Assembly (NCBI GenBank): GCA_938082635.1
Contig: CALLLI010000036.1
Location: 17,370 to 81,369 of the forward strand
Length of the DNA stretch: 64,000 nt
Direction: 5' to 3'
From: an uncultured Verrucomicrobiales bacterium
GTDB taxonomy: Bacteria; Verrucomicrobiota; Verrucomicrobiia; Verrucomicrobiales; DEV007
Both the position numbers and the translations under genes were made by a program. Below the pieces are notes generated by a model, which was given only the letters and a program-made list of their open reading frames with translations, was not told the origin of the DNA and made no database searches. Positions 9,563-58,454 of the stretch are shown one piece after another; the stretch's first letter is position 1, and each line of letters starts with the position of its first letter.

Positions 9563-9601
9563 CACGGGCTTCCAGCCCGTGTCCTGGGCAGGATGCCCAG
9601 G
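9563..9601. repeat. double hairpin repeat between the vWA gene and the giant membrane protein gene
   Basis: Two adjacent perfect 8-bp stem-loops with 3-base loops: CACGGGCT-TCC-AGCCCGTG (9563-9581) and CCTGGGCA-GGA-TGCCCAGG (9583-9601). The element ends 10 bp before the downstream ATG at 9612. It resembles dispersed intergenic palindromes of Verrucomicrobia and Planctomycetes and would form strong RNA structure next to the start site. Confidence 0.8.
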
Positions 9602-9611
9602 CTACCCTATC

Positions 9612-15600: not shown

Positions 15601-16490
15601 CGTATGCGTTCTATGTCTTTCCCCAGGACGGCTCGCCGACTGCGCAGGTCTCCTTTGCCTATGGCACCTACGAGTCTCAGTCCCGAACCACCCTGGCACT
15701 GGTGGCACCCGCCCTTGAGCTTCCACTTCAAGACATCACCTGGCAAGTCGTGTTGCCCAATGGCTACACGCTGAAGAAAAAGGTCGGGATGTTAGAACTC
15801 AAAAGCTCCGGTAAAGAGATCCGTTTCGATGTCGACCGTTACCAAGCTGCTCAAAAACAACGGCAAGCCCAACAGGCACAGAACGCCAGAACCTTGCTAG
15901 AACGCGCCAACTACTGGCTACGGGAAGGCCAACAAGACAAAGCACGCGAAGCCTTACAAAGCGCGAGCCAATCCAATTCACTCGACGCCGCCTCAAGTGA
16001 AGATGCCCGTGTCCAACTGCGCCAGTTGCAGACCGAGCAAGCACTCCTCGGCCTCAACTCACGGAGACAGTCCGTCTATCTTGAGAACCGCATTGAGACA
16101 CCCGAATTCGCCCGAAACGAACAGCTTGAGCAAGCAGCTCAGTTCAACGTGGTCCTACAGGGCCAGCTAAACTACGACCCGAACAAGGTAGATGATTTCT
16201 TGTTAGGAAACACCGCCGAAGAGAACAGCGCGCTCAAACGCATGGCCGGCCGACTCGTTAGCCACCAACAAGCCGCCGACCTTGGAGTGCGAGGACTCGA
16301 AGTGTCCTTACCAGCCCGCGGCGAACTTCTGACATTCCATCGCAGCGTGCAGGTCGACGGCAGCGAGCCCCTTCGACTAGAATTGACCCTCAGCCCGGAA
16401 GGCAAGGTGCCCTGGTGGTTCATCGGAGCGACCGTCCTCCTGCTAGGGCTGCTCGCCATCGTAGGATCACGTAATCGGGTAAAGGGATAG
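9612..16490 (+). CDS. 2292-aa exported membrane protein with internally duplicated beta-rich modules
   Basis: I recognise no named family. The ATG at 9612 is chosen because it gives a clean signal peptide (MKSFIAFVSLLLASISLAQ); a frame extension to 9579 would run into the hairpin repeat. Residues 20-1045 are beta-rich and exported. Four to five hydrophobic segments lie at about 1046-1190. A second signal-like stretch at about 1225 (WLACALSAAALFGG) introduces another beta-rich half. Residues 2080-2160 are Gln/Ala-rich and helical, and a last membrane helix at about 2263-2287 precedes a basic tail. Internal repeats are visible: the V-x-x-LQG...LFGEG-x-I-x-AV-x-G...W-x-V pattern occurs near residues 70 and 405. 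It is 114 bp downstream of the vWA gene, and the two plus the sigma factor look like one locus. Confidence 0.8.
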   Translation: MKSFIAFVSLLLASISLAQEPVEMPSTSSGLLIIDTKGVAPKPALFFAADARATIQLTHEAITQSITVDVHVLQGTPDVITLALFGEGKITAVTGEQVQFWAVRQGTGEDAAKRFLEIRPKLPSKDAPALSAFQATITTTQAIESLPTTTQMLTLGPGESAGFSTQLEIVSDDTVSPEVTDSTGWLSATAAEDDGPLRFQTTGNNTLALQLEARGVAANLVEFTKVRLEGQVDSDTQSASFTLTGTAIVRDERGGKLKLLSGQAALHELPAEASYQVHLRAQGEGAPYYELEFTEAGEFPISLNIDARLQVKGEWQAFDFTIPASAIVPMRLTGLPEDLRFDSARAVFPTRSDNDWLGFLPPSGRAATAWRSGKEEEDGKLFFATQEQTEVSVSAGLLRQALLLQVSILQGKLDSVQVDLFGEGEILAVEGQNVLGWTVTPGEDGARRLEIPLSQAIEGQAQFLIRSQTPVGAFPVTATPVRLAPVDSVRHSGNLRIGNQGAVRLQLSGLAGMTQLSTDQFPGELSLTNGATQVYVYRLPSANYAYEIQADQITPEVNVSQIVVYHMGDSDRQINAAIELDIRDAPLREWELQVPEDYAVVSVTGADVVDHILSSQADNGTRSLKVLFGSMVSGRRLLNLHLEKNEAPAAGDWALPTLTYPGAKSVRGHLGISATAGYRVSSGTTEKLSELPLTQFPKQQENLQQAYRLREPDWSATMTVEALGQSVQADVFHLYALKEGMVYGSVLLNYYVVGAPVSNWRLQVPAEMGNVGIDGEDVQTWRREGNEISVTLHEPALGPSTLLMTFEQPMSIEGGALALGAVTPLEVQGERGFIQVVSPYQVQHEIMQASDNLLSLEANELPTEFRLLTSAPSLIAYQYGARPFELAMNIQWLTPGKTVDQMIEYADLSSQISRDGQVATTAVFHVKTRGQQGLRLRLPDGATLWDAQVNDKAVNARADGDFTVIPLSAANEPNQSVRVKVRMGQPSVDPSHPIIGAPAADSPIMIHAWKVKSDHGQLLLPKGDAAKQLAAPVLTETGFEWLLGNRDHWEVSLLVLALALAIIGSWLAGSTQRWRLFLGGLVILAAAIFAGFLAHQAHDQARPNNTKLEIIAPVVSPGEPLTVSLAHVSHFSAMMQPVGIGLIVIGLGLFFLRKRLATCLGVMAIGVGLLMHPLGAPIFFGALALWLFFHRFVGCWRALLGSPPTQFRAEAESAPPTPPAISTPLWLACALSAAALFGGADFAQAADVSASTLTQRWKIEGQRLFGEFEISTSGKAGDRLRLLKNPAVLTAFTATSGDVRVARRAVDGGVDYDLVLEADGRISGTATFEMALEQPLSRVNFPTGIAAVHQMEVTLDQSSWEITSPAAVRLTTAQEGDANQSSVALSVGSQGEQCLSLAPRTRDLGSETSQFYVEVDQVFLPKPGVIDARHRIVVRPSQGRVRELTMLAPNGFTVSDVRLEGLRNWRFDPDTRQLRIELETARADGFQIAVFTQQGLAGLPTDATLEPLRVEGAAGEVGMLALAFGPDSQPESVTATGLSAVNLEDFDASLLGKREGNPLVLHRVYRYGADPGSLALRVTGVDPEIRMTTRQTLSLGEERLVLVIDLTASITRAGLFQLRFPMPAGLDVEAISGSHLDHWSEVTEDDVRLIILHLKGRSMGELTFAISLTGTAPGALDSWNVPRFTLENAARATGELIISPDLGIRAQAVSRRNVSQLDTRKIARKQAGTLAFQLLQEEWELALRIEQLEPWVTAQTLQEVTLREGQTRTRLAIHYQIENAAVKTLQLRLPGLSPTDEQSVHATGEAISDLVRVPETEDLWEIRFQRGMLGDVHVTIDFQQPADRSVNQEAIAPVILSEVRQATHWMAVRSVGRLGLSLAEADRRWQTADWGTVPTKLRQTRQGDTPRLCVRSIAPDQPLQVRVERHAVAEALKLRVSKGQLTTLLSAGGAQVTKAVLNIDVAEKSPLRVTLPNGSTLLNAFVNGQSVDLVNEGEGSTYAFYVFPQDGSPTAQVSFAYGTYESQSRTTLALVAPALELPLQDITWQVVLPNGYTLKKKVGMLELKSSGKEIRFDVDRYQAAQKQRQAQQAQNARTLLERANYWLREGQQDKAREALQSASQSNSLDAASSEDARVQLRQLQTEQALLGLNSRRQSVYLENRIETPEFARNEQLEQAAQFNVVLQGQLNYDPNKVDDFLLGNTAEENSALKRMAGRLVSHQQAADLGVRGLEVSLPARGELLTFHRSVQVDGSEPLRLELTLSPEGKVPWWFIGATVLLLGLLAIVGSRNRVKG

Positions 16491-32664: not shown

Positions 32665-35600
32665 TTACTGCTTCGCGCGATAGAAGCCAGCGGGAGCAGC
32701 GATGCGGTCCGCGTCCGTCTCTTCGAGCGCGCCACCGAGGCCAGGAGCGATGACCTCCCAGTTCTCAAGGTCCGTCGAGTATTCGATGTCCACTGTGAAC
32801 CCATCAGGAATGGTAAGTCCGAAGACACCGTTCTCGGTAATGCCGACGTCTTCCAAGATTAGATTCGTTGGAGTGGGCATAACCTCAGGCTGCAATGTCA
32901 GAGGAGTCTCAGCGCCATTAAATAAGTCTAACAAGTCACTTTCACTCAGGGCCACGTCCCAGATCGAGATATCGTCCATCAATCCGTCGAAGTTACGCGC
33001 TGTGCCACAGCAATTGTCCTTACCAAAGAACCATGAGGTGTTCATGTTCATTTGTGCTAGCTGGGGAACCGCATTGACGGCGGAGTTCAGTTCACCACCT
33101 GAGCCGACATACAAGGTCGCTTCGTCTTCCGTCAATGAGAGGGCAATGAAGACCCACTCATTTGGTGGGATGGCGACCCCACTCTCGAAGCCCCAGGAGG
33201 TGTTGGAATTGTCGTTCCACGTGTAACCTATATTCCCAGAACCGCCACTGAAGCCGATGCCTATGGGCTGATCAGGAGCCTCGCCGCCACGGGCTTGAAT
33301 CAGCCCAGACCAATCCCCCGTGTGGGCGCCGTTAATCCAACCCGTGATCGTGATCTGCTCGAAGGTCTTGCCTGTGGCCGGCACTTCGACATAACTGCCG
33401 CCGCCATCCTCACCGGTGACCTCAAAGCCTCCGCCACTTGCACCCGCACCCCAGGTACCGCCGACCAATGTACCGTCGAGGCCATTGCCACTCACATCTG
33501 CCACCGTCGTGCCTTCACCTTCATCGGCTGGCCAATAACCCACCAAGTTTGGCGAGGGATCACCGCCAACACCAGCCGCCCATCGGATGGAGTTCACGAA
33601 CAACTGCTTGCCTGCATCCGTTAGGTCATTGAATGATGAATCCGTTATTGGGAAAGCCACTCGTCGCGCAGGCGACACATTGTCTGTCACTCCTGCGCCG
33701 TCGGCCACAGCCGCTCCAGCCTCTGTGGCGAAGAGCATGGCAAGATCCACAATGCTACCATCGGCAGCTGTTCCCACCGCCTCGGTTCCAGCTGAGAGTG
33801 AAGAGGACCCTAGCGTTTCCGCGCCTGGCGCAGAGAAGAAGTCGATCGTGGTTCCAGCCAGATCTCCAGCGATGGGGTGATCGGACAAGGCCATCTGAAC
33901 CGTGTCGGTGGACTTGGTCATGATCACCGAGCTTTGACCAAACTCGCCTTCCGCGCTTGCATCCATGACCGCTTCTTCCCAGTTCACAATAGGTACTGCG
34001 GCGTTGTGGAATTTCCCTCGCACGGACCCCGAACCAAACGTCGACGAGAAGATAATCACATCAGCCGCCTCGGTGCCATCCGTAGCCCCAGAGTTTTGAT
34101 AACGCACATTCTCGGCACCAAACGTCTCCCCAAGGAAAGCAAGCACATTGGCATCGGCCCCCGTCTCCCCAGTATCATCGGCTCCCAATACGAGGAGGTC
34201 GAGCGGTCCGTCACCACCTGTTGGCACCGTTAACGTAATATCGTCCCCCTCGGTCCGCCCCACATTAGAGGCAGAGATGAAGCTCCCAGCGGCATCTGTT
34301 AGAATAAAACCACTGAGACCAGGATCCACACCATTGTCAGTGCCTGAAACAATCATGATATCCTGAGTCGCTCCAGTCGCGGTGAAACTCCCGATGACCG
34401 AACTATTCCCCCGAGGGAAATCACTACTGACATTCGTCCCATCAGAGGCCGCTTGATTCCGCGTGTTACAGCAGCCTCGTGTATCTCCCGCGCCTAACAA
34501 TTGCACTTGGTAGGACTCGCCGGCCGTCAAGCCATCGAGCGTGATCGACGCGCCATCGCCATTCCAGCCATGGCTGTTGTAAACCGAGTCCAGAATATCG
34601 TCGCCCGTCGTTCCGCCATCACCTGTCCAGAACGTGCCTTCAGCGTTCCCGCCATCATAGGCGAACGGCGCAAACGTGATCGAAGAACCACCGATCAAGT
34701 CGCCCAGCGTCGTATCGAGGTCGACGTCTCCCCAAGTGATGTTGCTAGTCTCCATGGGCACTTCGACAGCGCCCAACACCGTGCCTGGCGTCGTAAAGAG
34801 CTCAGCCACATCGTCGGCTGAGATGACGCGATCATAGATCTGCACATCATCGATCAGGCCAGAGAACGCAAGGCCACCGTCAAAGGCACCGATGAAGTAG
34901 CTATCAAGAGGGTCAATGGAGACTTCGACAGGGTCGTCCTGGGTCGCAACTGCCACACCATCGAGATAAAGGACGGCCTGAGTCGCTGTGTAACTCGCAA
35001 CCACATGGTACTTCGTTCCTGCGGTGATCGCACCTGCAACACCGAACTCAGGAGCTTCGCCCGAGAACCAGTTTAGGTCACCATCCTGAACAAGAACCGC
35101 AAAGGTCGGTGTGCTCACGCCTTGACCAATCACGGTCTGCAAAGCGGCAAGTTCCGATGGCTGAATCCACATGGAAACTGTAAAGTCTGTGATTTCGCCG
35201 AGGCCCTCTCCGGGAACAACGCCTTGCGCTCCTCCACTGACGTTCAGAGAACCACCCGTAGCGAGTGTGGCTCCACCCAAGGTCGCGCCGTCTAACGTCC
35301 CGTGACGGTTGTAGCCCGTGACATCTCGCAGCTCAGTGCCACCAGCATCATCGTCCATGGCATAATGGGCAGCAGGTCCCGTGAAGTTGATCACAGCTGC
35401 ATTCACTCTCGTCGTCCGAGTCTGATCATCAGCATCGACGTCGTCACTTTGGATTTCGATCGTAAAATCAAAGGCTCCTGTTCGACCCACCGTGTCCAAC
35501 GTTACCGCAAGCTTACCAACGCCACTTGCAGGGACACTGGCAAGTTCTCCAACGGTGACGAGGTCTTTGTCAGGCCCAGTCACGGAGATGCTCGAAATAG

Positions 35601-36477
35601 TCAACGCATTGTCTTGACCCACATTCCCCACCTCGAGTTCAAACTGAACGGGCACACCGGCAGAAACTCTCCCGAGATCGAGTGCTTGTTTCACAAAGAT
35701 GTCAGGACCCGGCCCCTCTGGGAAGAGTAATTCCACATCCGGAAAGGTTGTAGGATCATGCCACTGCTCAGTGCTATCTGTAGCCCAGCTAAGCTGCGTT
35801 TGTCGTTCGCCTTCGGCTTCGTCGTCATCATTGATGGCCACGCCGAAGCCAAAGAAACCACGTTCAAGGATTTCCGCCGGAGTGAAATCAGTGAGGGTAG
35901 ACCAAGGGATGGCCCACTCTATCGTATAACCTGTGTCTGATGTGGCGGCAATCGCATTCAAGTCTGCCACATCTCCATTCTCAGTCACCCAACGCTCGTG
36001 ATTGATGCCGTTGGTAACCTCAACCTCACCCGGTACAATCGTAAGCTGATAGATCGGGTGTTCTTTATCGACATTGTAGTCAGGAACCGTAGGACCGTCG
36101 TCTTTACCGAGCCCATCTGCGTCGAGGTAAAGCTCAAAACTATCATCCTGCCAAGCATCAGGGCCGTCGTTGGAGAAATAGTCGTCTGTGACTACTGCGT
36201 AGAAATAGAAGTTGTCATCATCCCACAGCGCCTTCCACGTGCAGGAGAGGTCATCATCATCATCAGGCATGTCGCCTACTGCGGTGAACGATTCGCCATT
36301 GAGGGTATACTCATTGGCCGTCGCCCAGGCAGCATCATCGGGGTTGCCATCGATGACGATTGCTTGGGAGGTGTGTCTAATGGAGCCTTTGATGTCTTGA
36401 GCACTGGCCACGGAAATACCCGCGATTAGAATTGCCAACGCCACACACCAAGAGGCAAGAGTAGGAACTCTTGTCAT
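32665..36477 (-). CDS. 1270-aa secreted mosaic: CBM9-like, LamG x2, ThuA-like
   Basis: A secreted protein with a signal peptide (residues 1-26). In order: a family 9 carbohydrate-binding-like domain at about 30-255 (IDGNPDDAAW, DDSFELYLDADG), an Ig-like choice-of-anchor domain at 255-365, a LamG/concanavalin-like domain at 370-570 (VSMWIQPSE, FSGLIDDVQIYDR), a galactose-binding-like domain at 580-730, a ThuA/glutamine-amidotransferase-like fold at about 740-965 (DLLVLGADD, ADVIIFSSTFG), a second LamG at 970-1185 and the phylum-typical end domain (VDIEYSTDLENWE). The CBM9-like and LamG parts point to binding of polysaccharide outside the cell. No catalytic centre is evident. It reads convergent to the sigma gene, 74 bp away. 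Confidence 0.78.
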   Translation of the reverse strand: MTRVPTLASWCVALAILIAGISVASAQDIKGSIRHTSQAIVIDGNPDDAAWATANEYTLNGESFTAVGDMPDDDDDLSCTWKALWDDDNFYFYAVVTDDYFSNDGPDAWQDDSFELYLDADGLGKDDGPTVPDYNVDKEHPIYQLTIVPGEVEVTNGINHERWVTENGDVADLNAIAATSDTGYTIEWAIPWSTLTDFTPAEILERGFFGFGVAINDDDEAEGERQTQLSWATDSTEQWHDPTTFPDVELLFPEGPGPDIFVKQALDLGRVSAGVPVQFELEVGNVGQDNALTISSISVTGPDKDLVTVGELASVPASGVGKLAVTLDTVGRTGAFDFTIEIQSDDVDADDQTRTTRVNAAVINFTGPAAHYAMDDDAGGTELRDVTGYNRHGTLDGATLGGATLATGGSLNVSGGAQGVVPGEGLGEITDFTVSMWIQPSELAALQTVIGQGVSTPTFAVLVQDGDLNWFSGEAPEFGVAGAITAGTKYHVVASYTATQAVLYLDGVAVATQDDPVEVSIDPLDSYFIGAFDGGLAFSGLIDDVQIYDRVISADDVAELFTTPGTVLGAVEVPMETSNITWGDVDLDTTLGDLIGGSSITFAPFAYDGGNAEGTFWTGDGGTTGDDILDSVYNSHGWNGDGASITLDGLTAGESYQVQLLGAGDTRGCCNTRNQAASDGTNVSSDFPRGNSSVIGSFTATGATQDIMIVSGTDNGVDPGLSGFILTDAAGSFISASNVGRTEGDDITLTVPTGGDGPLDLLVLGADDTGETGADANVLAFLGETFGAENVRYQNSGATDGTEAADVIIFSSTFGSGSVRGKFHNAAVPIVNWEEAVMDASAEGEFGQSSVIMTKSTDTVQMALSDHPIAGDLAGTTIDFFSAPGAETLGSSSLSAGTEAVGTAADGSIVDLAMLFATEAGAAVADGAGVTDNVSPARRVAFPITDSSFNDLTDAGKQLFVNSIRWAAGVGGDPSPNLVGYWPADEGEGTTVADVSGNGLDGTLVGGTWGAGASGGGFEVTGEDGGGSYVEVPATGKTFEQITITGWINGAHTGDWSGLIQARGGEAPDQPIGIGFSGGSGNIGYTWNDNSNTSWGFESGVAIPPNEWVFIALSLTEDEATLYVGSGGELNSAVNAVPQLAQMNMNTSWFFGKDNCCGTARNFDGLMDDISIWDVALSESDLLDLFNGAETPLTLQPEVMPTPTNLILEDVGITENGVFGLTIPDGFTVDIEYSTDLENWEVIAPGLGGALEETDADRIAAPAGFYRAKQ

Positions 36478-37916: not shown

Positions 37917-40900
37917 CTAACGCTCTCTCTGAATTTCTACAGCTGGCACACGATAACTACGGTGAGACTCGCCCGTCGCTTGGAAGAAGAACGCCCGGTC
38001 TCCCATGAAGAGCGTGGAGTGATCTTCATCCGTAAGATCCGGGTCCGTCGCCCCCGTCCAGTACTCGTGACCATCCGCCTCGAGCAAGAAGTAGCCTCGA
38101 TACCCAAGTATTCCCTGAACCAGATCCCCAAGCCAGAGCTGCACCTGATCCGCACCCGTCGGGTCCGAGTCTCCTAAGAAGCCATTGGACAACGTCAGCC
38201 CGCGTGTCGAAGGGCTCATATCAAGGGGCGCACTCGGCGCAAGTAAGTTATATCCCTGCTGAAGCGGTTGTATGAACGCGTGGTCACGCAAATGCCCTGT
38301 CACCAGAACAGATGCCCCTAGACTATCACTTGAAAGCCTAACAAAGGCTCCAACTCCAGGCGGAATCACCATTTGATGCGCGTTGTCGAGATCCGTATCT
38401 CCACTAGCAACCCAGTGTCGCCGACCACCCGCGTCTAAGAGATAGTAGCTATCGTAACCCGTTCCATTAAAGAACTGCATTTGGTCCGCGCTCGCAGGAT
38501 CATTGGATCCTTGGAATTGGCCAACGGGATACACCTCACCAAGTAAGCGATGTGGACGAATAACGGCCTGGCTGAATCGAAGCCCCGACGTGGGAAGAGC
38601 ACTCAAGGTGTTGTGCAAACCGCGAAGATCTATAGAGACGACCTGATCCGTCGTTCCTGCTAGATCGATATCAAAGCGATGCCCCTCATGCTGGCCACTC
38701 GCCAACTCAAGATAGTACGCACCTTCCCCAAGAAATTCTCTCAGGCCAGGCGCAGCAAGGGTGAAGCGGGCGCCGTCCACATCCACTTCAGCAATGCTAC
38801 TCGCGTAGATTGGAGACGCATTCAGACTCACACCATGGGTTTGGTAACCAGAACTGAATGAAGTTCGATACCAACCGCAAATCGGTGTCGTCGTTTCATA
38901 GTTCCAATCATGATGCCAAATACGCAACCTGACAAAACCACGCTCCAGACTCACACCAGGCAAATCTTCTAGATGGTCATAGTTCACTTTCTCCCAGCCA
39001 TAACGCAGGGTCTCGATCTCACTCTCCCGCAGGACGGTCGACCAAGAAACGAGGTCCGCACTAACCTCCAGCCAATAATCGATATTGCTATGGCCGGCCG
39101 GACGTTTGTAGGAAACGGATAGACGTGTGCCTTCCTCGTGAGCTTGCAGATCGATCCCCACATCCTCCATAGACGCGACATAAGGGTTCCGACCGAGCGC
39201 ATACTCTGCCGCCAAATCTAGCAGATCTCCATCCGCATTATCATGGGTTGGCACCCGCCGCCCTACATGATGAAACCCTAAATTCTCTCCGGTTTCATTC
39301 ACCGTGATCGCGCTATTCGGTAACTCCTCACGTGCAAAGCCAGGGCCTGCCCACGAGACCTCCAGGGTCTCCGCTCCTTCGCGTTCGAAGTAGTGCACCT
39401 CCACAGGATGCATTCCGGCCGCTAGTGTGATTGTCTCAGAAACTTCTGCTACGTCGTGAACACCGTCGTTGTCCACGACCAAGTTGCCGTCCAGATAGAG
39501 ACGGCTACCTTCATCTGACCGGAGGAACAAGGTATAGTCTCCATCTGCGGGGATCGCGAGACAGCCACGGTAGCGTATGGCAAAGAAATCGTCGCGTGCT
39601 CGCGGTGTCAGATTAATGGAAGAAAGGGTACCTGTTAGAACCGGATTCATCGTCGTGAAATCAGGCAACTGAGTCCAAGTCCCCTCGTAATAGGAATAGG
39701 TCATGCCATTGACCAGAGCCCCACCTAGCGAGCCGTAGACCTCCACCTCTGCAAGGCTAAGATAATTTACTCCGCTCAACTGAACCCGAACATAGCGCGC
39801 AGCTCGATTCACATCGATTCGCTGTGTCGGCAGCGGCACTTCGTTGTAGGTGAACTTAGACACGCCAAGTTGGTTGCTCACCTCCGAAACGTCCGTGGAA
39901 ACAAAGGGCTCTTTACTAACAAAGACATTGTAAGGCACGAGACGATCACCGCAGCAATCATTTCGATTCCAGAGCAGAAGATGGTCCACAGCGCGCACGC
40001 TGCCTAGATCGAGGTCCCACCATGCATCAACGTCCAGTTCCGTATGGGTCACACTGCCATTGCGCCAATCACCATCCGTATTGCCGTCACGGGCGAGATC
40101 GGCCTCGAAGACGGTTCCATAAACCGAAGCCTGAGTCGCGCTCGCAGTTGGGAGAACCGCCAGGTTCACAAGATCCGTCGCTCGCTCGTCCACCTGAGCA
40201 TCTTTGTAGAAGGCATCAAAGGCCTCATCTGAATCTGCCCACCCTTCAGGAAGCAAACGCACGGCCCAGATGTAACCGGCACCGGGACGGGCATCGCCGA
40301 CGATGCCGATATTGAACGTTTGCGAGCCAATGCCAGGATCCACTTTGACCAATCCCTGCCCGATCGTACGCCAACCATCCGTTGAATCATGCAGCCAGAT
40401 ACCAAGGTCCCGCCGAACTGTCGCTTCATAGTCCACCTGCACCTCGACCACCGTCGCGGGTTGGACCGCACTCGGAGCCTCCACACTCGTCACGATGTCT
40501 TGGGTCGCGGGACCTCCTGAGTTCCTCTCCACGGTCGCATTGCCATAGTCGGCGTCCAAAGCATCATCGTCCGTCGTCGCTCCTAACGGAAGCAAACGCA
40601 CCGCCCAGACATAACCATCACCTTCGCGGGCACCGGTAACGACAGGCAGGGTAAACGCATGGGCACCAAAGCCAGGCTCAACCGTCGCGTTGCCCTTGGC
40701 CACGGTGAACCAGCCGTTCTGCGAATCATGCAGATAGACCCGTAGTTCACGACGCTCCGTCACTTGAAAGGGAATATCCAGCGTTATAGTGTCAGGACTC
40801 ATGACGAGTTCCGGAAGCACGATGGCTCCCAACGCATCCACTTCCGGCGGGGCCGTTCCCGCTCGCACATCAGCGAGGCCGAAGTCCTCTGCCAGGGCAT

Positions 40901-43900
40901 CGGCGGCCGTCGCCCATCCCACTGGCAACAAACGCAAAGCCCAGACATAGCCATCGCCAACACGCGCACCCGTATCGATGACCAAATCAAACGTGTGGTT
41001 TCCAGATCCCGCCGCCAGACTCACATTGCCCTGAGCTGCCGTCCGCCAGCCACCGTTAGAATCCTGCAGCCACACCCACAACTCGCGCGTCTCCGTAGCC
41101 GCATACTCGACACTCACGGTCACCGTCTCCCCATGTACCACACTACCCGGGACACTTAGATTCGCCAAACCATCTTCGGTAGGCAGCGAGCGATCCACCG
41201 TGATCGTGGTCGTCGCAGAAACGCTCCCCACGCCATTCGTAGTCGTTAGCGTGTAAGTCGTGGTCACACTCGGCGTCACCACGACGCTACTCTGTCCGAG
41301 CACATTGCCCAGGTTCGGGGTGATTGTGAGCGCCGTGAGAGGCGTGCCACCATCCAGCACCGACCACTGCAAATCCGTCGGCTCTCCTTCAGTGAGAACC
41401 GACGCACTACTAGCAAAGCTTTCCACAACAGGTGCCGTGAAGGGCAACTCATAGATCACGGGAAGAGTATTCGAATCCAAGTTTCCACGCGATCCATCAT
41501 CCGTTGCGGAATCGGCAGGCAACCGAACCGCGATCGCCCCAGGAGCAGCCGGCGTCACATCGAATCGATAAATGTCGCCAGCGCCAGACAGCGAACTGAC
41601 AGTCGCATTCGACAGCGCGAAATCACCTAACGAAAGCCCAGTGACTGCGGCGGTGAAACGTACGGTGACTTCAAAGGGGCCCATGACAGAGGCAGCACTC
41701 GTCGACAAGACCACCGCTGGAGCAGACTCAGGTGGGCGCACTTCCCAAGAGAACGATTGCGACACGGTTGACCACGGATCACTTACACGCACGAGCACGG
41801 TATAATTTCCCGCACTACTTTCGCTCAGTGTCCCAGAAACGACGCCATTGCTCTCATCGATCTGCAAGCCCGGCGGCAAGTTCACGGCGGTGAAGGTCAG
41901 AACATCGTTCGTCGGGTCCGATCCAAGAATTACCAATTCGACAACTTCACCAACTTGATTGGCCTGCGGTCCAGGGTTCGCTAGGACAGGCGCAGCAGCA
42001 CCACCTTCACGAAGTTTCAGGAATTGGTTAGGCGCTGGATCCAGCACTTCCTCGACGAGCCCTGAAGGCCACCGGACCCAGAGCTTCTCGATGCTTAGCG
42101 CATTCCCCAAACCGAAGATCTGCGTGAAACTGTGACTGATTCCGTAGCTCTCGCCCCCACGCACCTCTCGCACCTGCACTCCCCACGGACCATGCAGCTC
42201 CATGCGCGCACCAATCGCGGATTTGTTAGACGCCTCACCTTCAAGGCTAATCGAAAGGAAGCCATTGCCGTTTGGAGAAGCGAGGAAGAGCTTGTCCGGA
42301 CGGCTAGTCTGCGGCGTGTTATAGATCTTCGCGTACCCCGCATAGACATCGGTAAATCCATCGCGATTAAGATCACCCACCGCACAAGACTCGATCGTGG
42401 TAGAGGTAAAGGCCTCTCCAGAACGTGTAAAGGTGCCGGCACGATCATTAAGCCAGAGTTCGTGATCCTGCCCTACTAGCAGAAGATCCAACCAACCATC
42501 GTTATTGAAATCTCGGAATACAGTCTGGATCACCCGCCAATTCACTGAGATTCCGCACGCAGCCGTGATATCCGTGAACGTGCCGTCTCCATTGTTCTGC
42601 ATCACGACGCTTGGATCGTGGTGGTTTCCAACGAAGCAATCCAAATCACCGTCGTTATCAATATCACCAAAGTCCGCCGCCCAGGACTGTTCGCCAAAGG
42701 CCATGCCAAGATCAGAAGCGACGTTGGTGAATCCCGCCGCTCCGTCATTGCGGAAGAACATGTTAATCCGACGCGGATCTGTGTAGCTACTGACGCCGCC
42801 GCGACACTTCGAAAGATAGAGATCGAGGTCCCCATCATTGTCATAGTCCGTCCACACAGTCCCATAGTTTCCCGAGTTATCGCTCGAAGGCGTCGTCCGC
42901 GTGTTTATAAGACTGTTATCATACACAAAACTGCGTCCATTTCCGCCGCGGAACTTCGCGTTGTCCCCCACATCGTGGCAGGCAAAGATATCGAGATAGC
43001 CATCCCCATTGATATCCGCAAAGTTTACCGCCTGGAGGAAGACGCGTGGGCTAGTGAGATTAGTTGTGTTGTAAACCGTTCGACTACCATTGTTCCATTT
43101 GAGATGTAGATTGTCGTAGTAGCCGCCACTGAGTACATCCGGGTAACCATTGTCATCAGCATCGGCAAGGCACAGCCCCCACTGACGTTGATTGCTTACT
43201 TTTCCAAGATTCTGGGCAACGAAACGAGCCCCGCCAGCGGACTGGTGATCAATGAACAAGTTCTTTGCTCCATTCAAATGGACGATATCGTCAAGGCCAT
43301 CCTGATCCATGTCAGCGATCCCCATGGCCACGCCGCTTGCGTGAGACGGGTTCGCCAATCTGCTAGAGCGATCAAAAAAAGTGATCGCAGCCGCATTCGT
43401 TCCCGAGATCACTTGAATCGTCACTGTGCTCGCGTTAGAAACGCCGCCAGCTCCATCGTTCACCACATAGGTGAAGCTATCCGTCCCTAAGAAATCAGTA
43501 TTCGGCGCGTAACGCGCATAGCCGTTGGAAAGCCATTCCAACGATCCTTGAGAAGGCTCGGTCGAGCTTTCTCGAACTAACACATCGTTATCGAGGTCAG
43601 TATCGTTGGACAAGACTGGGATATCCACGAACTCCCCTTGCAACGTGCTCGCTTCATCATCTTGCGCCACCGGTGATCGATTGAGCCCGCCACCATCAGG
43701 GTCAGGCGTCAGAGCAAGAATCCACTCACTAATCGCAGTCACGGCCTCGTCATGCACGACGTTCCGACCAATCGGCGGCATCTGATGGATCCCAACTGAA
43801 CTGACCCGCCGATGCAAGATGCTCCTCTGGATGCTCTGCGGCACGACCACGCGCGCATCTTCTACTCCAAGATCATAGAGCACGGAACCATCAATAAGAT

Positions 43901-44852
43901 TCTGCTCAGCAGATGGCGTTGTAAAACGCGTGTCAAAGGAGGTCGCCAAAGCGTCAGGCCGATGGCAGTGCGCACAGTTTGCATCGAGATAGGAACGCAC
44001 CCGCGTTTCGATAGACGCGTTGGTGTCGTCCAAAGATACAGAACTCAAATACCCAGGAATCGCTGACTCATCGAGAGCTGGCGATAACAGCCCCAAGTGG
44101 TTTAACGTCCGCAGCTGGTTATCATTCCTCCCGGTGCTCGGATACGTAAAATCACCGTTCAGTTGATGCGTGTTCAAACCTAACATGTAGCCCGAATCGG
44201 GATTGTGACAGCTCAGACAATCAGTGCGACTCGGATAAGACCACGTTTGCGTGCTCACGGTACCACTCGCATCAGTCACCGTGATCTCTTCGGACGCTCC
44301 ATCTAACAAGAGATCGGCATCGGACCCATCTTCGCGCCATTGATAGGTCACTCCGTAGATACCACCATTGGCTGCGCGTACAATGAAGCGTGTTTCCACT
44401 CGGCGAATATGTGAGGGATCGCGCCCATCGGTCGGCAAGTCGAACTGCTTCACCGCCACAGTACCGACCGGGAAGTCCCAAGGAGACTCTGGAGAAAACT
44501 GTATCTGCTCTGCAGCCGAATCGGCTGCACCATCATTCGGAACAGCGACCCAACGCTGCTTCACAGAACCATCCGTCCAAAGTGGCGAGTTCACGCCGTA
44601 AGGCACCAAACCAGCACGGGGCGAAAGCGAGGCCAGATCCGTGAACGCCCCAGTCTCAGAAAGGAGACTCGGTGGCTGCGGAGCCCCGGCCACGCCAGGC
44701 TCGGTCGAGGGAAAGATGCCGTCCAAATAAGCACTAATCGGCGTCAGCGCATCTTGCCCATACTGCTGGGCCTTCCCCAGCTGGAGACCGCACACCAGCG
44801 TCATCAAGCCCAGAACCAAGGCACAGGAGGTCGTCGAAACACATCGCTTCAT
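37917..44852 (-). CDS. 2311-aa extracellular diheme cytochrome c fused to FG-GAP/ASPIC, F5/8C, PA14 and lectin-like modules
   Basis: A secreted giant with a signal peptide (residues 1-28). Residues 30-385 form a diheme cytochrome unit with two C-x-x-C-H sites (C212-H216 and C293-H297) and candidate Met ligands M223 and M358. Then follow a cadherin-like Ig domain (392-480), FG-GAP/VCBS repeats (487-870), an ASPIC/UnbV-like end (877-945), further Ig-like domains (945-1215), three copies of a ~110-aa beta domain (1224-1557), an F5/8C-like domain (1560-1715), a PA14-like domain (1717-1859) and a TIGR02597-like tandem pair (2097-2300). Individual pieces are known families; I know of no protein with this full order. 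Redox activity coupled to glycan binding is inference. Confidence 0.82.
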   Translation of the reverse strand: MKRCVSTTSCALVLGLMTLVCGLQLGKAQQYGQDALTPISAYLDGIFPSTEPGVAGAPQPPSLLSETGAFTDLASLSPRAGLVPYGVNSPLWTDGSVKQRWVAVPNDGAADSAAEQIQFSPESPWDFPVGTVAVKQFDLPTDGRDPSHIRRVETRFIVRAANGGIYGVTYQWREDGSDADLLLDGASEEITVTDASGTVSTQTWSYPSRTDCLSCHNPDSGYMLGLNTHQLNGDFTYPSTGRNDNQLRTLNHLGLLSPALDESAIPGYLSSVSLDDTNASIETRVRSYLDANCAHCHRPDALATSFDTRFTTPSAEQNLIDGSVLYDLGVEDARVVVPQSIQRSILHRRVSSVGIHQMPPIGRNVVHDEAVTAISEWILALTPDPDGGGLNRSPVAQDDEASTLQGEFVDIPVLSNDTDLDNDVLVRESSTEPSQGSLEWLSNGYARYAPNTDFLGTDSFTYVVNDGAGGVSNASTVTIQVISGTNAAAITFFDRSSRLANPSHASGVAMGIADMDQDGLDDIVHLNGAKNLFIDHQSAGGARFVAQNLGKVSNQRQWGLCLADADDNGYPDVLSGGYYDNLHLKWNNGSRTVYNTTNLTSPRVFLQAVNFADINGDGYLDIFACHDVGDNAKFRGGNGRSFVYDNSLINTRTTPSSDNSGNYGTVWTDYDNDGDLDLYLSKCRGGVSSYTDPRRINMFFRNDGAAGFTNVASDLGMAFGEQSWAADFGDIDNDGDLDCFVGNHHDPSVVMQNNGDGTFTDITAACGISVNWRVIQTVFRDFNNDGWLDLLLVGQDHELWLNDRAGTFTRSGEAFTSTTIESCAVGDLNRDGFTDVYAGYAKIYNTPQTSRPDKLFLASPNGNGFLSISLEGEASNKSAIGARMELHGPWGVQVREVRGGESYGISHSFTQIFGLGNALSIEKLWVRWPSGLVEEVLDPAPNQFLKLREGGAAAPVLANPGPQANQVGEVVELVILGSDPTNDVLTFTAVNLPPGLQIDESNGVVSGTLSESSAGNYTVLVRVSDPWSTVSQSFSWEVRPPESAPAVVLSTSAASVMGPFEVTVRFTAAVTGLSLGDFALSNATVSSLSGAGDIYRFDVTPAAPGAIAVRLPADSATDDGSRGNLDSNTLPVIYELPFTAPVVESFASSASVLTEGEPTDLQWSVLDGGTPLTALTITPNLGNVLGQSSVVVTPSVTTTYTLTTTNGVGSVSATTTITVDRSLPTEDGLANLSVPGSVVHGETVTVSVEYAATETRELWVWLQDSNGGWRTAAQGNVSLAAGSGNHTFDLVIDTGARVGDGYVWALRLLPVGWATAADALAEDFGLADVRAGTAPPEVDALGAIVLPELVMSPDTITLDIPFQVTERRELRVYLHDSQNGWFTVAKGNATVEPGFGAHAFTLPVVTGAREGDGYVWAVRLLPLGATTDDDALDADYGNATVERNSGGPATQDIVTSVEAPSAVQPATVVEVQVDYEATVRRDLGIWLHDSTDGWRTIGQGLVKVDPGIGSQTFNIGIVGDARPGAGYIWAVRLLPEGWADSDEAFDAFYKDAQVDERATDLVNLAVLPTASATQASVYGTVFEADLARDGNTDGDWRNGSVTHTELDVDAWWDLDLGSVRAVDHLLLWNRNDCCGDRLVPYNVFVSKEPFVSTDVSEVSNQLGVSKFTYNEVPLPTQRIDVNRAARYVRVQLSGVNYLSLAEVEVYGSLGGALVNGMTYSYYEGTWTQLPDFTTMNPVLTGTLSSINLTPRARDDFFAIRYRGCLAIPADGDYTLFLRSDEGSRLYLDGNLVVDNDGVHDVAEVSETITLAAGMHPVEVHYFEREGAETLEVSWAGPGFAREELPNSAITVNETGENLGFHHVGRRVPTHDNADGDLLDLAAEYALGRNPYVASMEDVGIDLQAHEEGTRLSVSYKRPAGHSNIDYWLEVSADLVSWSTVLRESEIETLRYGWEKVNYDHLEDLPGVSLERGFVRLRIWHHDWNYETTTPICGWYRTSFSSGYQTHGVSLNASPIYASSIAEVDVDGARFTLAAPGLREFLGEGAYYLELASGQHEGHRFDIDLAGTTDQVVSIDLRGLHNTLSALPTSGLRFSQAVIRPHRLLGEVYPVGQFQGSNDPASADQMQFFNGTGYDSYYLLDAGGRRHWVASGDTDLDNAHQMVIPPGVGAFVRLSSDSLGASVLVTGHLRDHAFIQPLQQGYNLLAPSAPLDMSPSTRGLTLSNGFLGDSDPTGADQVQLWLGDLVQGILGYRGYFLLEADGHEYWTGATDPDLTDEDHSTLFMGDRAFFFQATGESHRSYRVPAVEIQRER

Positions 44853-53476: not shown

Positions 53477-56400
53477 GTGCCTTGTGAGGATGCACGAATC
53501 ATCTTTACGAGTCGCACAGGCGGCGCACGAGAGGACGTGTTTATCGATGACATTGTGGTGCTCACCCCAGCCGATCAAACGGACAGCGACAATGACGACT
53601 TGTTAGACTCTTGGGAGCAAGCCTACTTTGAAAATCTCACAGCAAGCGCGACTGGCAACCCCGACGGAGATGGACTCACAAATCTTCAGGAACAGACCAA
53701 CGCCACTTCGCCCAACGCTGCGGACACAGATCTTGACGGGCTGTTAGATCACTTCGAAACGAATACGGGTGTCTTTGTCAGCGCCACGAATACCGGCACG
53801 GATCCCTCAAGAGCAGACAGTGATCGCGATGGCCTGGGAGACGGACGCGAAGTCGCCGCCCTGGATCACGTGACGAATCCCACGCTCTTTGACACAGATG
53901 GTGACGGTCATGGAGATCTGCACGAACTCTTCTGGGACATGGATCCAAACGATGCGAACAGCGTCCCAGATCGCGTGCCCTTGCCCTGGTACTCTGCCTA
54001 TGATGGGTCCTGGGTTTGGCGCTTGGAGAAACTCCGCGTACTCTGGGATCGGACGTCCACCGTACCCGTGCAGAATCAGTGGCGCGAACAACGTCTCTTT
54101 GGCGCCACCGTGCAGAACACGTCGACCGATTGGGGCCGCGAGATCAATTTCACTCTCCGCTATCATGCGACAAACGGAATGGGCTTCCTACTTCGCGCAG
54201 ACAATCTCGGGGTGTTAGAGCGCCCCTCAGGAAACGGTCTTTCGCGGAATGAATGGCGGCCCAATGACGACTGGAACGATCCGTTAGGCTTCTCGGGTGT
54301 CGGACGTATGGATGAATCCGATCCGTTAACCTTCGAAGCCCGTGTCTGCCCAGGAGAGGATTCGCCCTCCGGCGGCATGGTCCTCCTGCGCTTGATCAAT
54401 GAACGAACAGGCGACGTCGTCGTGGAAGCCAGGGAAGCGGGTATCAGTCCTGCGTCACTCCGAGATGGGTCTGCCGTCTGGTTGTCCCGTTACAACGAGT
54501 CAGAGGGCACACTATGGTCAGCGCCTGGAATCAACGTGACCATGGGGCCTCCCCAAGCTCCACTCGACTCAGATGACGACGGCATGACAGATGCTTTCGA
54601 AACGATGCATGGCTTGAATCCAAACGACGCTTCAGATGCCGGGCTTGATCCTGACTTGGATGATCTCACCAATTTCGAAGAAGCTTTCTGGATGACAGAT
54701 CCAACCGTGGCGCATTCCGACAGCGATGGCGTCAGTGACGGGGAAGAGGTGCGACGGGGCTACTCACCGACGTCGGATTCTTCGACACCTCCATACTTCA
54801 GTTTCCCCCCCCCAACAAACCGCGAAGACATCGACGGCAATGGCCTAACGGACCTCTGGGAGAAATCGTTAGGGCGTGGTCAACCACTGGATCCCGATGG
54901 CGACAAAGACGGCGATGGCCAAACCAATGCGATGGAAGACCTCGCAGGCACCGACCCCTTCGATGCGGAGTCCGATCTCGAAGTGACGATGGATTTGTTA
55001 GACGAAGATGTCGATGTCCAGTGGGATGCCGTCCCAGGAAAGCGCTATCGATTGCTAGGATCCGATAATCTAGACGTCTGGGGCCCTATCACAACCCGGA
55101 GCGCAGCTGCAGGCGAGCGCAGGATGGCCGAAACGCTCACGGGAGACGGCAAGGATACAAGAAAGATGTATCAAGTGGAAGTCAGCAGCGTGGATACGGA
55201 CGGCGACGACGTGCCGGACGATGCGGAAATGATCATCGGCACGGATGCCACTCGAGCAAACAGCGGTGGGTCCAGCGAGACCGGCTCTGGCGGCAGCACG
55301 CTCTCGGGCGACTATGTGAAGCTACTGGAAACAATCCAAGGTGCCAACGGCAGCGCGACAAGTGGGCAACCATCACGCACACAAGCGTCGCGTTTCCTAA
55401 TGCAGGCAAGCTTTGGACCTTCGTTAGAAGCAATGGACCGCGTAGTTGATCTCGGATACGAGGCCTGGATTGATGATCAGATTGCCAACCAAGGCATGTA
55501 CCTTCACGAGCCCTACATTGCCGCACTCGACCAAGATCATCGCTATGGATTTGGGGAGATTCGGAACTACCGCAAGGGTCAGTTTGGCGTGCCCGGCGAG
55601 AACACGACGACCCCATTCTTCCGCGGCGCCCTTCAAGAGAGTGACCAACTCCGTCAGCGCGTCGCCTTCGCTCTCAGCCAGATCTTAGTCGCGTCACGAG
55701 CCGACACCAATTTAGAGGATCGTCCGCAGGCCATGTGTCAGTTCTACGACATCTTCATCCGGCATGCCTTTGGGAACTACGAAGACATCCTGTGGAAAAT
55801 CTCTATGCACCCCGTCATGGGCCGTTACCTCAGCCACCTCGGAAACCAGAAAGCACGACCAGAGATTAATCAATTCCCCGACGAGAACTATGCTAGAGAG
55901 ATCATGCAGCTCTTCACCATTGGCATTTGGGAACTCCATCCCAATGGCGAGCGCATCCTTGATGGCGAGGGCGAACCGATTCCCACCTACGACAACGATA
56001 CGATCAAAGAGCTAGCGCGCGTCTTTACAGGCGTTTGGTATGGCGGCTTAAACTTCGGTCAGGGAAATGATTACCTCCAACCCATGGTCGTGCATGCCGA
56101 GCGGCATGACTTCGAGGCTAAGCCTATCTTTGTCGACCGCACCGCCCCTGGTCGACCAGACATCACGCTGCCAGCCCGCCTCGAGTCGGTGGCGAACGCC
56201 GAGCAGGACATTCGAGACGCCGTAGCCATGCTCTTTGAGCACCCGAACACCGCGCCATTCGTTTCCCGCCAATTAATTCAGTTCCTCGTCACCGCAAATC
56301 CAAGCCCGAGCTACGTCGAGCGTGTTCAAGCCGTCTTTGGTAACAATGGCAGTGACGAACGAGGTGATCTTAGCGCCGTCGTTAAAGCGATTCTGCTAGA

Positions 56401-56980
56401 TGAAGAAGCGCGTTCGCCCGAGCACTTTCTAAAAGAAGATTTCGGCAAACTGAAAGAGCCCGTTCTCCGGATGACCAGCCTAGCACGCGCCTTCAACCTC
56501 GGCCGTTACGACGACCTCGTATGGTGGGATCTCAATGCCTTCCAGAGTGCTGGCTTCCAGGTGCCTACAATGGCGCCGAGCGTCTTCAACTACTTCCGCC
56601 CAGACTATCAGGCCCCTGGCGAAGTTCGCGCGGAGAACTTAGTCAGTCCGGTCTTCCAGATCACGGATAGTTTCACCACCATCGCCATGCCGAACTACCT
56701 CTGGGAGATCCTCTCCGAAGGTTTCCCTGGAGGCACTGGAAATGACGACGATGATCGATTCGCGTTGGATTTCTCGACCCTCACCGCCTTGGCCGACTCC
56801 ACGGAAGCCTTGATTGATCGCATGAACCTTCTCTTCTGTGCAGGTCGCATGTCGGTCGCCACGCGCGACGAGCTCATTGCCGCGATCGACGTGCTTACTG
56901 CCGATTACCTCCCGCAGCAGAAAGCTGTCCTCGCGGCCTACCTGACACTTTGCTCTCCAAACGGCGCCATCCTCAAGTAA
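53477..56980 (+). CDS. 3' part of the giant protein: lectin end, TSP3 repeats and DUF1800 domain
   Basis: The frame is open from just after the TGA at 53390; 53477 is the first ATG, but there is no ribosome site or signal peptide, so this is a continuation rather than a separate gene. It begins with the end of the L-type lectin (ANFAIDGTPIFTNLP, VFIDDIVVL), then TSP3 repeats, a beta domain, more TSP3, and the phylum's YRLLGSDNLDVWG domain. From 55380 a full DUF1800 domain follows (ASRFLMQASFGPSLEAMDRV, LRQRVAFALSQILVAS, NFPDENYAREIMQLFTIG-like NQFPDENYAREIMQLF, RVFTGVWYGG). DUF1800 proteins nearly always pair with DUF1501, and a DUF1501 gene follows 25 bp downstream. Confidence 0.82.
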   Translation: MPCEDARIIFTSRTGGAREDVFIDDIVVLTPADQTDSDNDDLLDSWEQAYFENLTASATGNPDGDGLTNLQEQTNATSPNAADTDLDGLLDHFETNTGVFVSATNTGTDPSRADSDRDGLGDGREVAALDHVTNPTLFDTDGDGHGDLHELFWDMDPNDANSVPDRVPLPWYSAYDGSWVWRLEKLRVLWDRTSTVPVQNQWREQRLFGATVQNTSTDWGREINFTLRYHATNGMGFLLRADNLGVLERPSGNGLSRNEWRPNDDWNDPLGFSGVGRMDESDPLTFEARVCPGEDSPSGGMVLLRLINERTGDVVVEAREAGISPASLRDGSAVWLSRYNESEGTLWSAPGINVTMGPPQAPLDSDDDGMTDAFETMHGLNPNDASDAGLDPDLDDLTNFEEAFWMTDPTVAHSDSDGVSDGEEVRRGYSPTSDSSTPPYFSFPPPTNREDIDGNGLTDLWEKSLGRGQPLDPDGDKDGDGQTNAMEDLAGTDPFDAESDLEVTMDLLDEDVDVQWDAVPGKRYRLLGSDNLDVWGPITTRSAAAGERRMAETLTGDGKDTRKMYQVEVSSVDTDGDDVPDDAEMIIGTDATRANSGGSSETGSGGSTLSGDYVKLLETIQGANGSATSGQPSRTQASRFLMQASFGPSLEAMDRVVDLGYEAWIDDQIANQGMYLHEPYIAALDQDHRYGFGEIRNYRKGQFGVPGENTTTPFFRGALQESDQLRQRVAFALSQILVASRADTNLEDRPQAMCQFYDIFIRHAFGNYEDILWKISMHPVMGRYLSHLGNQKARPEINQFPDENYAREIMQLFTIGIWELHPNGERILDGEGEPIPTYDNDTIKELARVFTGVWYGGLNFGQGNDYLQPMVVHAERHDFEAKPIFVDRTAPGRPDITLPARLESVANAEQDIRDAVAMLFEHPNTAPFVSRQLIQFLVTANPSPSYVERVQAVFGNNGSDERGDLSAVVKAILLDEEARSPEHFLKEDFGKLKEPVLRMTSLARAFNLGRYDDLVWWDLNAFQSAGFQVPTMAPSVFNYFRPDYQAPGEVRAENLVSPVFQITDSFTTIAMPNYLWEILSEGFPGGTGNDDDDRFALDFSTLTALADSTEALIDRMNLLFCAGRMSVATRDELIAAIDVLTADYLPQQKAVLAAYLTLCSPNGAILK

Positions 56981-57005
56981 CCACTCTCAAGCCTAACTGA
57001 CTCTC

Positions 57006-58454
57006 ATGGAAATCCATTCAAAGAAGACATCCCGTCGCCGGTTTCTCAAACAAGCCAACTGCGCAGCCATCGGCTCGTCCTCGATTCTATCGACCGTGCT
57101 CAATCTGCGCATGGCAAATCAAGCTGCGGCAGCCGATCTCGGTGGCGGCGAAGATTGCAAGTCCTTGGTCTGTATCTACCTAGGTGGCGGGATGGACTCC
57201 TACAATCTCCTCGTTCCCAGAGACACCACGCCCTATCAAGACTACGTCACCACGCGGAGCAATCTCGCCCTTCCTCAGTCAAGCCTCACACAGCTAAATC
57301 AAGCTAACGGCGGAGATGGAGACCTCTACTCCATGCATGGCTCAGCGACCGGCATGTCAGACATGTTCAATGGCACCGGCGACTTTTCAGGCAACCGGAG
57401 GCTCTCCTTTATCACCAATGTGGGCACGCTGATCCAACCGACTAGCCTTAGTGATTACTTGGGCAAGAGGGTCCCGCTCCCCAAAGCACTGTTCTCACAC
57501 AAAGATCAAACAGAACAGTGGCAAACTTCGGTGCCGCAAGGCATGCAGCAACTCACCGGTTGGGCCGGGCGCGCAGCCGATGTGCTGCACTCGACGCTCA
57601 ACACCGGGGCCACCTCGATGAACATCTCTTTGAGTGGGAACAATGTGATGCAAACTGGAGAACAGGTGACACAGTTTGTCGTCACGCCGGATGGTGCCTT
57701 GCAGTTTTCAGAATCCAGCCAGAACGAGCCTCTCTTTGTCACGAAGAACAGCGCGCTGAAAAGCCTCATGGACCAAGAGTATTCCAACCGCTTTGAGCGC
57801 ACGTTTGCTGGCCTTACCAAGGACAGTGTGGAAACGAGCGCTGAATTCACCAAAGCCTTCTCTGAAGCCCAGACGCCAGCCAATCCGTTCCCAACGGACC
57901 GGTTTGGACAGCAACTCCTCTCCATTCTCAAGACGATCGAAGCGCGCGATAAGCTCGAATTGCGCCGCCAAACCTTCTTCGTCGATTTCGGCGGCTGGGA
58001 TCACCATGGAGAATTGCTCGAGTCTCAGGCCGCTTTGTTAGAACGCTTGAGCCCAGCCTTGGCAGCGTTTCAGCTAGGCCTGGATAATTTGGGTTTGGGC
58101 AATGACGTCATCACCTTCTCCTGCTCGGACTTTGCTAGAACCTTGCGCTCCAATGGCCGGGGAACCGACCATGCCTGGGGCGGCAATGCCTTCGTCATGG
58201 GTGGCCCGATCGACGCTGGCAAGGTCCACAGCACCACCTTGCGCCCGTCTGGTTACCCCTCCATTGCCCTCGGCGGCCCAGACGACATTGGCCGGGGTGG
58301 ACTCATCTTGCCAACCACCTCTGTTGATGAATACCTTGGCGAAATGTTAACCTGGTTTGGCGTGTCGAATGCAGCAATGGATGACGTCTTGCCCAACCTC
58401 GACGAGTTCTACAATCCGGCCGTAACTCCAAAGCCAATCGGATTCCTTGCATGA
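57006..58454 (+). CDS. DUF1501 family Tat-exported protein paired with DUF1800
   Basis: A 482-aa DUF1501 protein with a twin-arginine signal (SRRRFLKQA). Landmarks are VCIYLGGGMDSYNLLVPRD, SHKDQTEQWQTS, FFVDFGGWDHHGELLE, and FSCSDFARTLRSNGRGTDHAWGG, the shape of the family that pairs with DUF1800. The pair is widespread but its chemistry is unknown; export and metal-type residues suggest a periplasmic or surface role. It begins 25 bp after the DUF1800 gene and its stop overlaps the next start as ATGA, so all three are likely one operon. Confidence 0.9.
   Translation: MEIHSKKTSRRRFLKQANCAAIGSSSILSTVLNLRMANQAAAADLGGGEDCKSLVCIYLGGGMDSYNLLVPRDTTPYQDYVTTRSNLALPQSSLTQLNQANGGDGDLYSMHGSATGMSDMFNGTGDFSGNRRLSFITNVGTLIQPTSLSDYLGKRVPLPKALFSHKDQTEQWQTSVPQGMQQLTGWAGRAADVLHSTLNTGATSMNISLSGNNVMQTGEQVTQFVVTPDGALQFSESSQNEPLFVTKNSALKSLMDQEYSNRFERTFAGLTKDSVETSAEFTKAFSEAQTPANPFPTDRFGQQLLSILKTIEARDKLELRRQTFFVDFGGWDHHGELLESQAALLERLSPALAAFQLGLDNLGLGNDVITFSCSDFARTLRSNGRGTDHAWGGNAFVMGGPIDAGKVHSTTLRPSGYPSIALGGPDDIGRGGLILPTTSVDEYLGEMLTWFGVSNAAMDDVLPNLDEFYNPAVTPKPIGFLA

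Follow-up and report, generated by a model that had tools for sequence, protein, structure and literature searches.

A giant verrucomicrobial protein that joins an SO2930-like diheme cytochrome module to a CRTAC1-like propeller and a putative glycan-binding arm

Architecture of the giant protein and its locus

The window, the whole 64,000-nucleotide stretch that we analyzed, carries on its minus strand a single intact, ATG-started frame of 2311 codons (Table 1). As the original prediction had it, the encoded 2311-aa protein has two N-terminal C-x-x-C-H sites, both within this frame. The protein starts with a hydrophobic segment, a putative signal peptide; for the remainder, the calculated mass is about 246 kDa and the pI 4.4. 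Pfam and NCBIfam models gave the domain order SO2930-like diheme cytochrome, Big_9, six FG-GAP stretches (Pfam FG-GAP_3), UnbV_ASPIC, He_PIG, Big_12, F5/8 type C (F5/8C), and PA14. Each of the remaining three genomes in the genus encodes a full-length ortholog (86, 66, and 63% identity; four of four genomes in total), and the same full-length architecture is present in public MAG records labelled Verrucomicrobiaceae and Verrucomicrobiia (L037 and L038). Thus, the frame is no assembly accident, and the gene is real and under selection. The sequences close to the window protein all come from MAGs. The original prediction had named an already common domain order as a point against itself; we found the full order only in this genus, whereas the core order recurs across Verrucomicrobiota.

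The adjacent gene for a YWTD-propeller protein is kept next to the giant gene across the genus. Also downstream lies a gene for a 1270-aa secreted protein with a CBM9 and two Laminin_G_3 domains (window 32665-36477), which is absent beside the giant gene in the neighboring loci examined. Elsewhere, the window holds a 2303-aa open reading frame on the plus strand with no Pfam match at an E value of 0.01 (9579-16490) and a gene pair encoding a large DUF1800 protein (1167 aa) and a DUF1501 protein (53477-58454). No candidate gene for an electron donor or acceptor was identified in the window.

Table 1. Features of the giant gene and its neighbor, in window coordinates
Feature	Residues	Position	Strand	Evidence
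Giant diheme/propeller/putative glycan-binding protein, 2311 aa		37917..44852	-	Frame translation, Pfam/NCBIfam, orthologs
N-terminal hydrophobic segment, putative signal peptide	1-28	44769..44852	-	Sequence
SO2930-like diheme c-type cytochrome module	55-385	43698..44690	-	TIGR03806 and alignment
Heme 1 motif CLSCH	212-216	44205..44219	-	C, C, H invariant, n=101
Heme 2 motif CAHCH	293-297	43962..43976	-	C, C, H invariant, n=101
Met358, putative sixth ligand of heme 2	358	43779..43781	-	Met358-Pro359 invariant, n=101
Big_9 linker domain	391-479	43416..43682	-	Pfam, E 5e-18
FG-GAP beta-propeller, CRTAC1-like	490-860	42273..43385	-	FG-GAP_3 E 1e-30, AlphaFold, Foldseek
UnbV/ASPIC domain (Pfam match 879-945)	861-950	42003..42272	-	Pfam, E 2e-14
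He_PIG Ig domain	954-1038	41739..41993	-	Pfam
Big_12 Ig-like domain	1046-1124	41481..41717	-	Pfam
Ig-like segment	1138-1222	41187..41441	-	No Pfam match; conserved in genus orthologs
110-aa repeat 1	1224-1334	40851..41183	-	Repeat alignment; remote 8wae match
110-aa repeat 2	1336-1446	40515..40847	-	Repeat alignment
110-aa repeat 3	1450-1560	40173..40505	-	Repeat alignment
F5/8 type C (fucolectin-like) domain	1572-1694	39771..40139	-	Pfam; phmmer
PA14 domain	1715-1845	39318..39710	-	Pfam E 2e-19; PDB 6qdi
C-terminal domain, remotely TIGR02597-like	1870-2311	37920..39245	-	Order-wide matches; profile-profile
Adjacent YWTD (LDL-receptor class B) propeller protein, 422 aa		36636..37904	-	12 nt downstream of giant

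The diheme module

The cytochrome module matches TIGR03806 at residues 61-380 (232 bits; E value of 9e-69), covering positions 2-313 of the 314 in the model and including two CxxCH motifs and a conserved Met-Pro. This score lies below the curated cut-off of 313.3 bits, which was reached by none of the 195 genomes in our phylum sample. We found no relevant paper on TIGR03806 in the openly licensed literature, and a PDB profile search gave no significant sequence relative of solved structure. An identity as a MauG/CCP or RoxA protein was rejected, based on the lack of a CCP_MauG match in Pfam and of a PDB relative.

Conserved axial ligands had been set as a test of the original prediction. Among 101 relatives, the proximal ligands and the heme 2 Met are invariant, whereas for heme 1 neither a His nor a Met is conserved on the distal side. 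Heme 2 is very probably His/Met coordinated, since both its CxxCH motif and Met358-Pro359 are invariant. The sixth ligand of heme 1 would be unusual or missing, because conserved His and Met are absent outside the motifs; Met223, the sole Met near heme 1, is present in 1 of the 101 relatives. Further invariant residues are Ser65, Arg100, Glu153-Thr154, Tyr170, Trp172, Tyr288, Asn292, and Ser344, with Tyr170 and Tyr288 the only ones of a type that might serve as the heme 1 ligand.

This coordination pattern would suit a heme 1 that is catalytic or binds oxygen or peroxide, making the diheme module an oxidase or peroxidase like RoxA or MauG to which the propeller presents substrate. Sister giants with RoxA-like and MauG-type diheme domains, described below, are consistent with such a role. 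However, the open coordination is read from an alignment, and neither sequence kinship of the module to MauG or RoxA nor a significant PDB relative was found. We consider heme 1 catalysis improbable.

In the Flavobacteriaceae sample described below, many second diheme matches cover only about positions 3-243 of TIGR03806 and lie apart from the propeller genes. Two of these shorter matches that we examined (L235 and L236) have two CxxCH motifs each.

The propeller

Pfam scores of 106.6 bits for FG-GAP (cut-off, 26.9) and 53.6 bits for UnbV_ASPIC (cut-off, 23.4) place the segment behind the Big_9 linker in the FG-GAP/ASPIC family. The AlphaFold model of the core (residues 24-950) has a mean pLDDT of 89.9, with residues 490-950 folding at high confidence, and its best PDB match by Foldseek is murine CRTAC1 (9etn; E value of 4.7e-25; 532 columns; target TM of 0.69). 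According to this model, residues 490-950 are a bacterial CRTAC1-type FG-GAP/ASPIC propeller. The propeller noted originally is therefore present, and it is more than an adhesive module.

In the overall columns of the aligned propellers, the Asp-rich loops of FG-GAP, which are of calcium-binding type, are invariant. A search of the FG-GAP/ASPIC propeller revealed no active-site signature or catalytic motif, and CRTAC1 itself, the best structural relative, is not known as an enzyme. CRTAC1-family propellers are common in bacteria.

Pairing of diheme modules with propellers

The diheme module occurs in three arrangements: fused behind GSDH, a PQQ sugar dehydrogenase; fused before a propeller; or encoded on its own, by a gene that immediately precedes a propeller gene. 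Among named records, the diheme-propeller fusion is confined to Verrucomicrobiota. Of 57 related genomes, 9 have the fused core of diheme module, Big_9, propeller, and ASPIC, as do further MAGs. Separate diheme-then-propeller genes, sometimes in tandem pairs, occur in Flavobacterium, Chryseobacterium, Oceanihabitans, Fluviicola, and others.

The query of our initial scan of the genome collection held both the diheme and the propeller parts. We therefore used an unselected sample of 121 genomes of one family, the Flavobacteriaceae, centred on a Flavobacterium and drawn without reference to the propeller. A propeller-ASPIC gene lies directly downstream, on the same strand, of 30 of the 36 full-length diheme genes in this sample. 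Seen from the propeller side, the link is looser: a diheme gene lies upstream of 30 of 49 propeller genes but not of the other 19, some of which stand amid unrelated genes. An obligatory link of the propeller to a cytochrome was thus ruled out; the propeller does not need one. Two contig ends of one genome of this family (G399) may hold a broken fused gene.

We analyzed the origin of the pairing with trees from quick searches without bootstrap, which were midpoint-rooted and have long branches. In the diheme tree (75 rows), the fused sequences fall among the GSDH-linked ones, and a strongly supported branch separates the paired Flavobacteriaceae. The propeller tree has the same split, with lone propellers from Saprospiraceae and others grouping with the fused side. 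A single clade of fused and paired sequences was rejected for the diheme module (AU p of 0.0003) and more strongly for the propeller, so the association probably arose twice, which is the best reading of these trees rather than proof. A single old pairing with several losses is possible and requires more steps.

Because this diheme module has a propeller of that type as its partner in other lineages too, where the pairing seems to be of independent origin, the two probably make up a genuine extracellular redox unit. The original description of a stalk tipped by an electron carrier overlooks this propeller partner, which is fused here and a neighboring gene in Flavobacteriaceae. In the openly licensed literature that we searched, no paper was found on a diheme-CRTAC1 pairing or on a redox role for CRTAC1-family propellers. 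The juxtaposition would be functionally meaningless if it came from ordinary domain shuffling within a giant surface protein, and these genomes are indeed rich in giant mosaic proteins, with many FG-GAP matches in the window's genome. Such shuffling is highly improbable in our judgment, as it accounts neither for the conserved Flavobacteriaceae neighborhood of apparently separate origin nor for a fused core that different genera and families share despite their differing C-terminal arms.

In two Deltaproteobacteria and one MAG of the Flavobacteriales (L049:237-4354, L051:7887-11764, and L055:5909-10838), a propeller-ASPIC gene directly adjoins a gene that encodes five CxxCH motifs. The five-CxxCH genes have weak Cytochrome_C7 and MtrC/MtrF-like matches, and the one in L055 has a T9SS tail.

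The C-terminal arm and the sister giants

The three tandem unassigned domains of about 110 aa that were first noted at residues 1224-1557 now have refined boundaries (Table 1). They are 41-46% identical to repeat 1, with 25 invariant columns in two species, and have no convincing Pfam assignment. The PDB yielded a single significant relative, a beta-agarase domain (8wae; profile E value of 4.2e-6; 84 columns), which the repeat resembles in this one remote match; no relevant paper on 8wae was found in the openly licensed literature. A structure prediction, as the original prediction had proposed, gave the CRTAC1 fold for the core; a model of the C-terminal half, with a pLDDT of 54, is too weak to confirm this likeness, and its fold matches were disregarded. 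Among 142 genomes of the order, this genus alone has the repeats, one of its genomes carrying 18 copies. A phylum-wide sample added weak relatives in four further genomes, including proteins with GH26, weak GH30C, or CBM96 matches.

Pfam also bears out the F5/8C-like and PA14 modules of the original prediction; the F5/8C domain is nearest to fucolectin-type structures, with FBP32 among its phmmer matches. The C-terminal residues, about 440 in number, recur in many giant proteins of the order (many matches at 1870-2305). Direct membership in TIGR02597 was rejected, since model matches at E values up to 10 do not include the window protein. Compared profile to profile with two TIGR02597 proteins from its own genome, the C-terminal domain scored a probability of 95.5% (E value of 1.5e-8). 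The TIGR02597-like tail first described is accordingly a remote relative only, as judged from profiles.

Sister giants (L142, L138, and L143, all of the same genus, and L137) carry a C-terminal cassette of repeats, F5/8C, in some cases PA14, and the C-terminal domain. In L142 (1925-9610; 2562 aa), the cassette includes PA14 and follows GSDH, diheme cytochrome, PA14, and SASA esterase-like domains. It is combined with galactose-oxidase-like E-set and Kelch domains and MauG/RoxA-like diheme domains in L138 and L143, and with a lactonase-type propeller and two CxxCH motifs in L137. The 110-aa repeats are missing from L147 and L148, which share the C-terminal domain and have the oxidase-plus-MauG arrangement. 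These sister giants are our strongest hint that the cassette would deliver redox chemistry to a glycan, and the window protein may do likewise by analogy. The redox-coupled polysaccharide work suggested originally becomes more plausible through this cassette on sugar dehydrogenase and galactose-oxidase-like enzymes. The window protein itself has no GSDH domain (Pfam, E values up to 1), and PF09118 was not matched in the window's own genome, in a search unable to show absence.

At two loci (L148:803-10461 and L149:3428-12324), an MbnP plus CCP/MauG fusion gene lies directly before a giant gene whose product has galactose-oxidase-like, PKD, propeller, and MauG/RoxA-like diheme domains.

Proposed function

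Taken together, we read the giant as a secreted, glycan-tethered extracellular redox protein derived from a dehydrogenase-diheme fusion, with a probability of about 0.5. The SO2930-like diheme module and the CRTAC1-like FG-GAP/ASPIC propeller would form one functional unit, in which the binding of a redox partner or substrate would fall to the propeller, rich in Asp calcium-type loops; the electrons would go to the diheme module, which would hand them to an acceptor. The Ig domains, triple repeat, F5/8C, and PA14 would hold this unit on a polysaccharide, for which a galactan-like polymer is a guess from the agarase-domain match, and the TIGR02597-like tail may be a lineage-specific terminal module. 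The ancestor was probably a fusion of GSDH, a quinoprotein sugar dehydrogenase, with the diheme module that lost the dehydrogenase and gained the CRTAC1-like propeller. The analysis shows the architecture, the conserved heme motifs, the recurrent pairing, and the common C-terminal cassette, from which secretion, electron flow, glycan binding, and substrate oxidation are inferred. Against this reading stand the missing active-site signature, the 19 propellers out of 49 with no diheme gene upstream, the single remote repeat match behind glycan binding, and the absence of a donor or acceptor gene among those identified in the window.

The same missing motif would suit a noncatalytic extracellular electron-transfer protein or redox adhesin, with a propeller that serves solely as a scaffold for docking or adhesion and dihemes that carry electrons from other enzymes to the cell or a solid acceptor, or back. 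Propellers of this family beside the five-CxxCH genes fit such a protein, as does the listing of SO_2930 as outer membrane or extracellular in Shewanella (PMC4837345). Two hemes, however, are too few for a long-distance span, and the oxidoreductase domains of the sister giants with the same tail suggest glycan chemistry over bulk conduction. We therefore think this alternative rather unlikely, and the contact-dependent electron transfer of the original prediction is not supported.

The giants also show how Verrucomicrobiota hang differing redox units on a common, putatively glycan-binding tail, with a bearing on how these bacteria attack polysaccharides. A broader proposal, which we advance as doubtful, is that bacterial c-type cytochromes have in CRTAC1-like FG-GAP/ASPIC propellers a class of partners that recurs. 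With the SO2930-like diheme module they would make up an undescribed extracellular oxidoreductase, the FG-GAP propeller replacing the quinoprotein propeller of sugar dehydrogenases. The repeated pairing with a specific diheme cytochrome, by fusion in one phylum and as neighbors in another, is a directly testable lead, and the Flavobacterium gene pairs, from genera in ordinary laboratory use, make testing feasible.

Comparison with known systems

With CRTAC1 and other FG-GAP plus UnbV_ASPIC proteins, the giant shares the propeller and ASPIC fold; unlike murine CRTAC1, its propeller, 17% identical, is bacterial and fused to a cytochrome. It resembles the SO2930 family (TIGR03806) over nearly the whole model, in both heme motifs and the Met-Pro. 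In contrast to that family, the module scores below the cut-off, belongs to the GSDH-linked branch, and is fused to a propeller and a putative glycan-binding arm, whereas an SO2930-type diheme gene adjoins a beta-helix-like gene (as in L156).

Gene clusters with HZS-like alpha and beta-gamma genes have been described to include an FG-GAP gene of the CRTAC1 family (PMC12758564); the resemblance lies in a CRTAC1 family gene that neighbors diheme-propeller genes. HZS gamma is a peroxidase-type diheme protein, and the hydrazine synthase kinship that this paper led us to consider was rejected, as the sequence search gave none with the window module. PSCyt cytochromes with carbohydrate-binding modules, described in Verrucomicrobia by He et al. 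2017 (PMC5615132), likewise combine cytochrome c and glycan-binding modules in one verrucomicrobial protein. They differ in being of the Planctomycete PSCyt/PSD type, with another cytochrome family, no CRTAC1 propeller, and a predicted periplasmic or cytoplasmic location.

Cellvibrionaceae encode proteins of 1.9-2.0 kaa with GSDH, F5/8C, SO2930-like diheme, more F5/8C, and C-terminal ThuA domains (L085:6042-11723 and L095:6012-12128). GSDH-diheme fusions, including those of this domain order in Cellvibrio and Gilvimarinus, share the diheme branch, the giant format, and the F5/8C modules with the window protein. Theirs is a quinoprotein propeller before the dihemes, whereas the window protein has a CRTAC1-like propeller after them.
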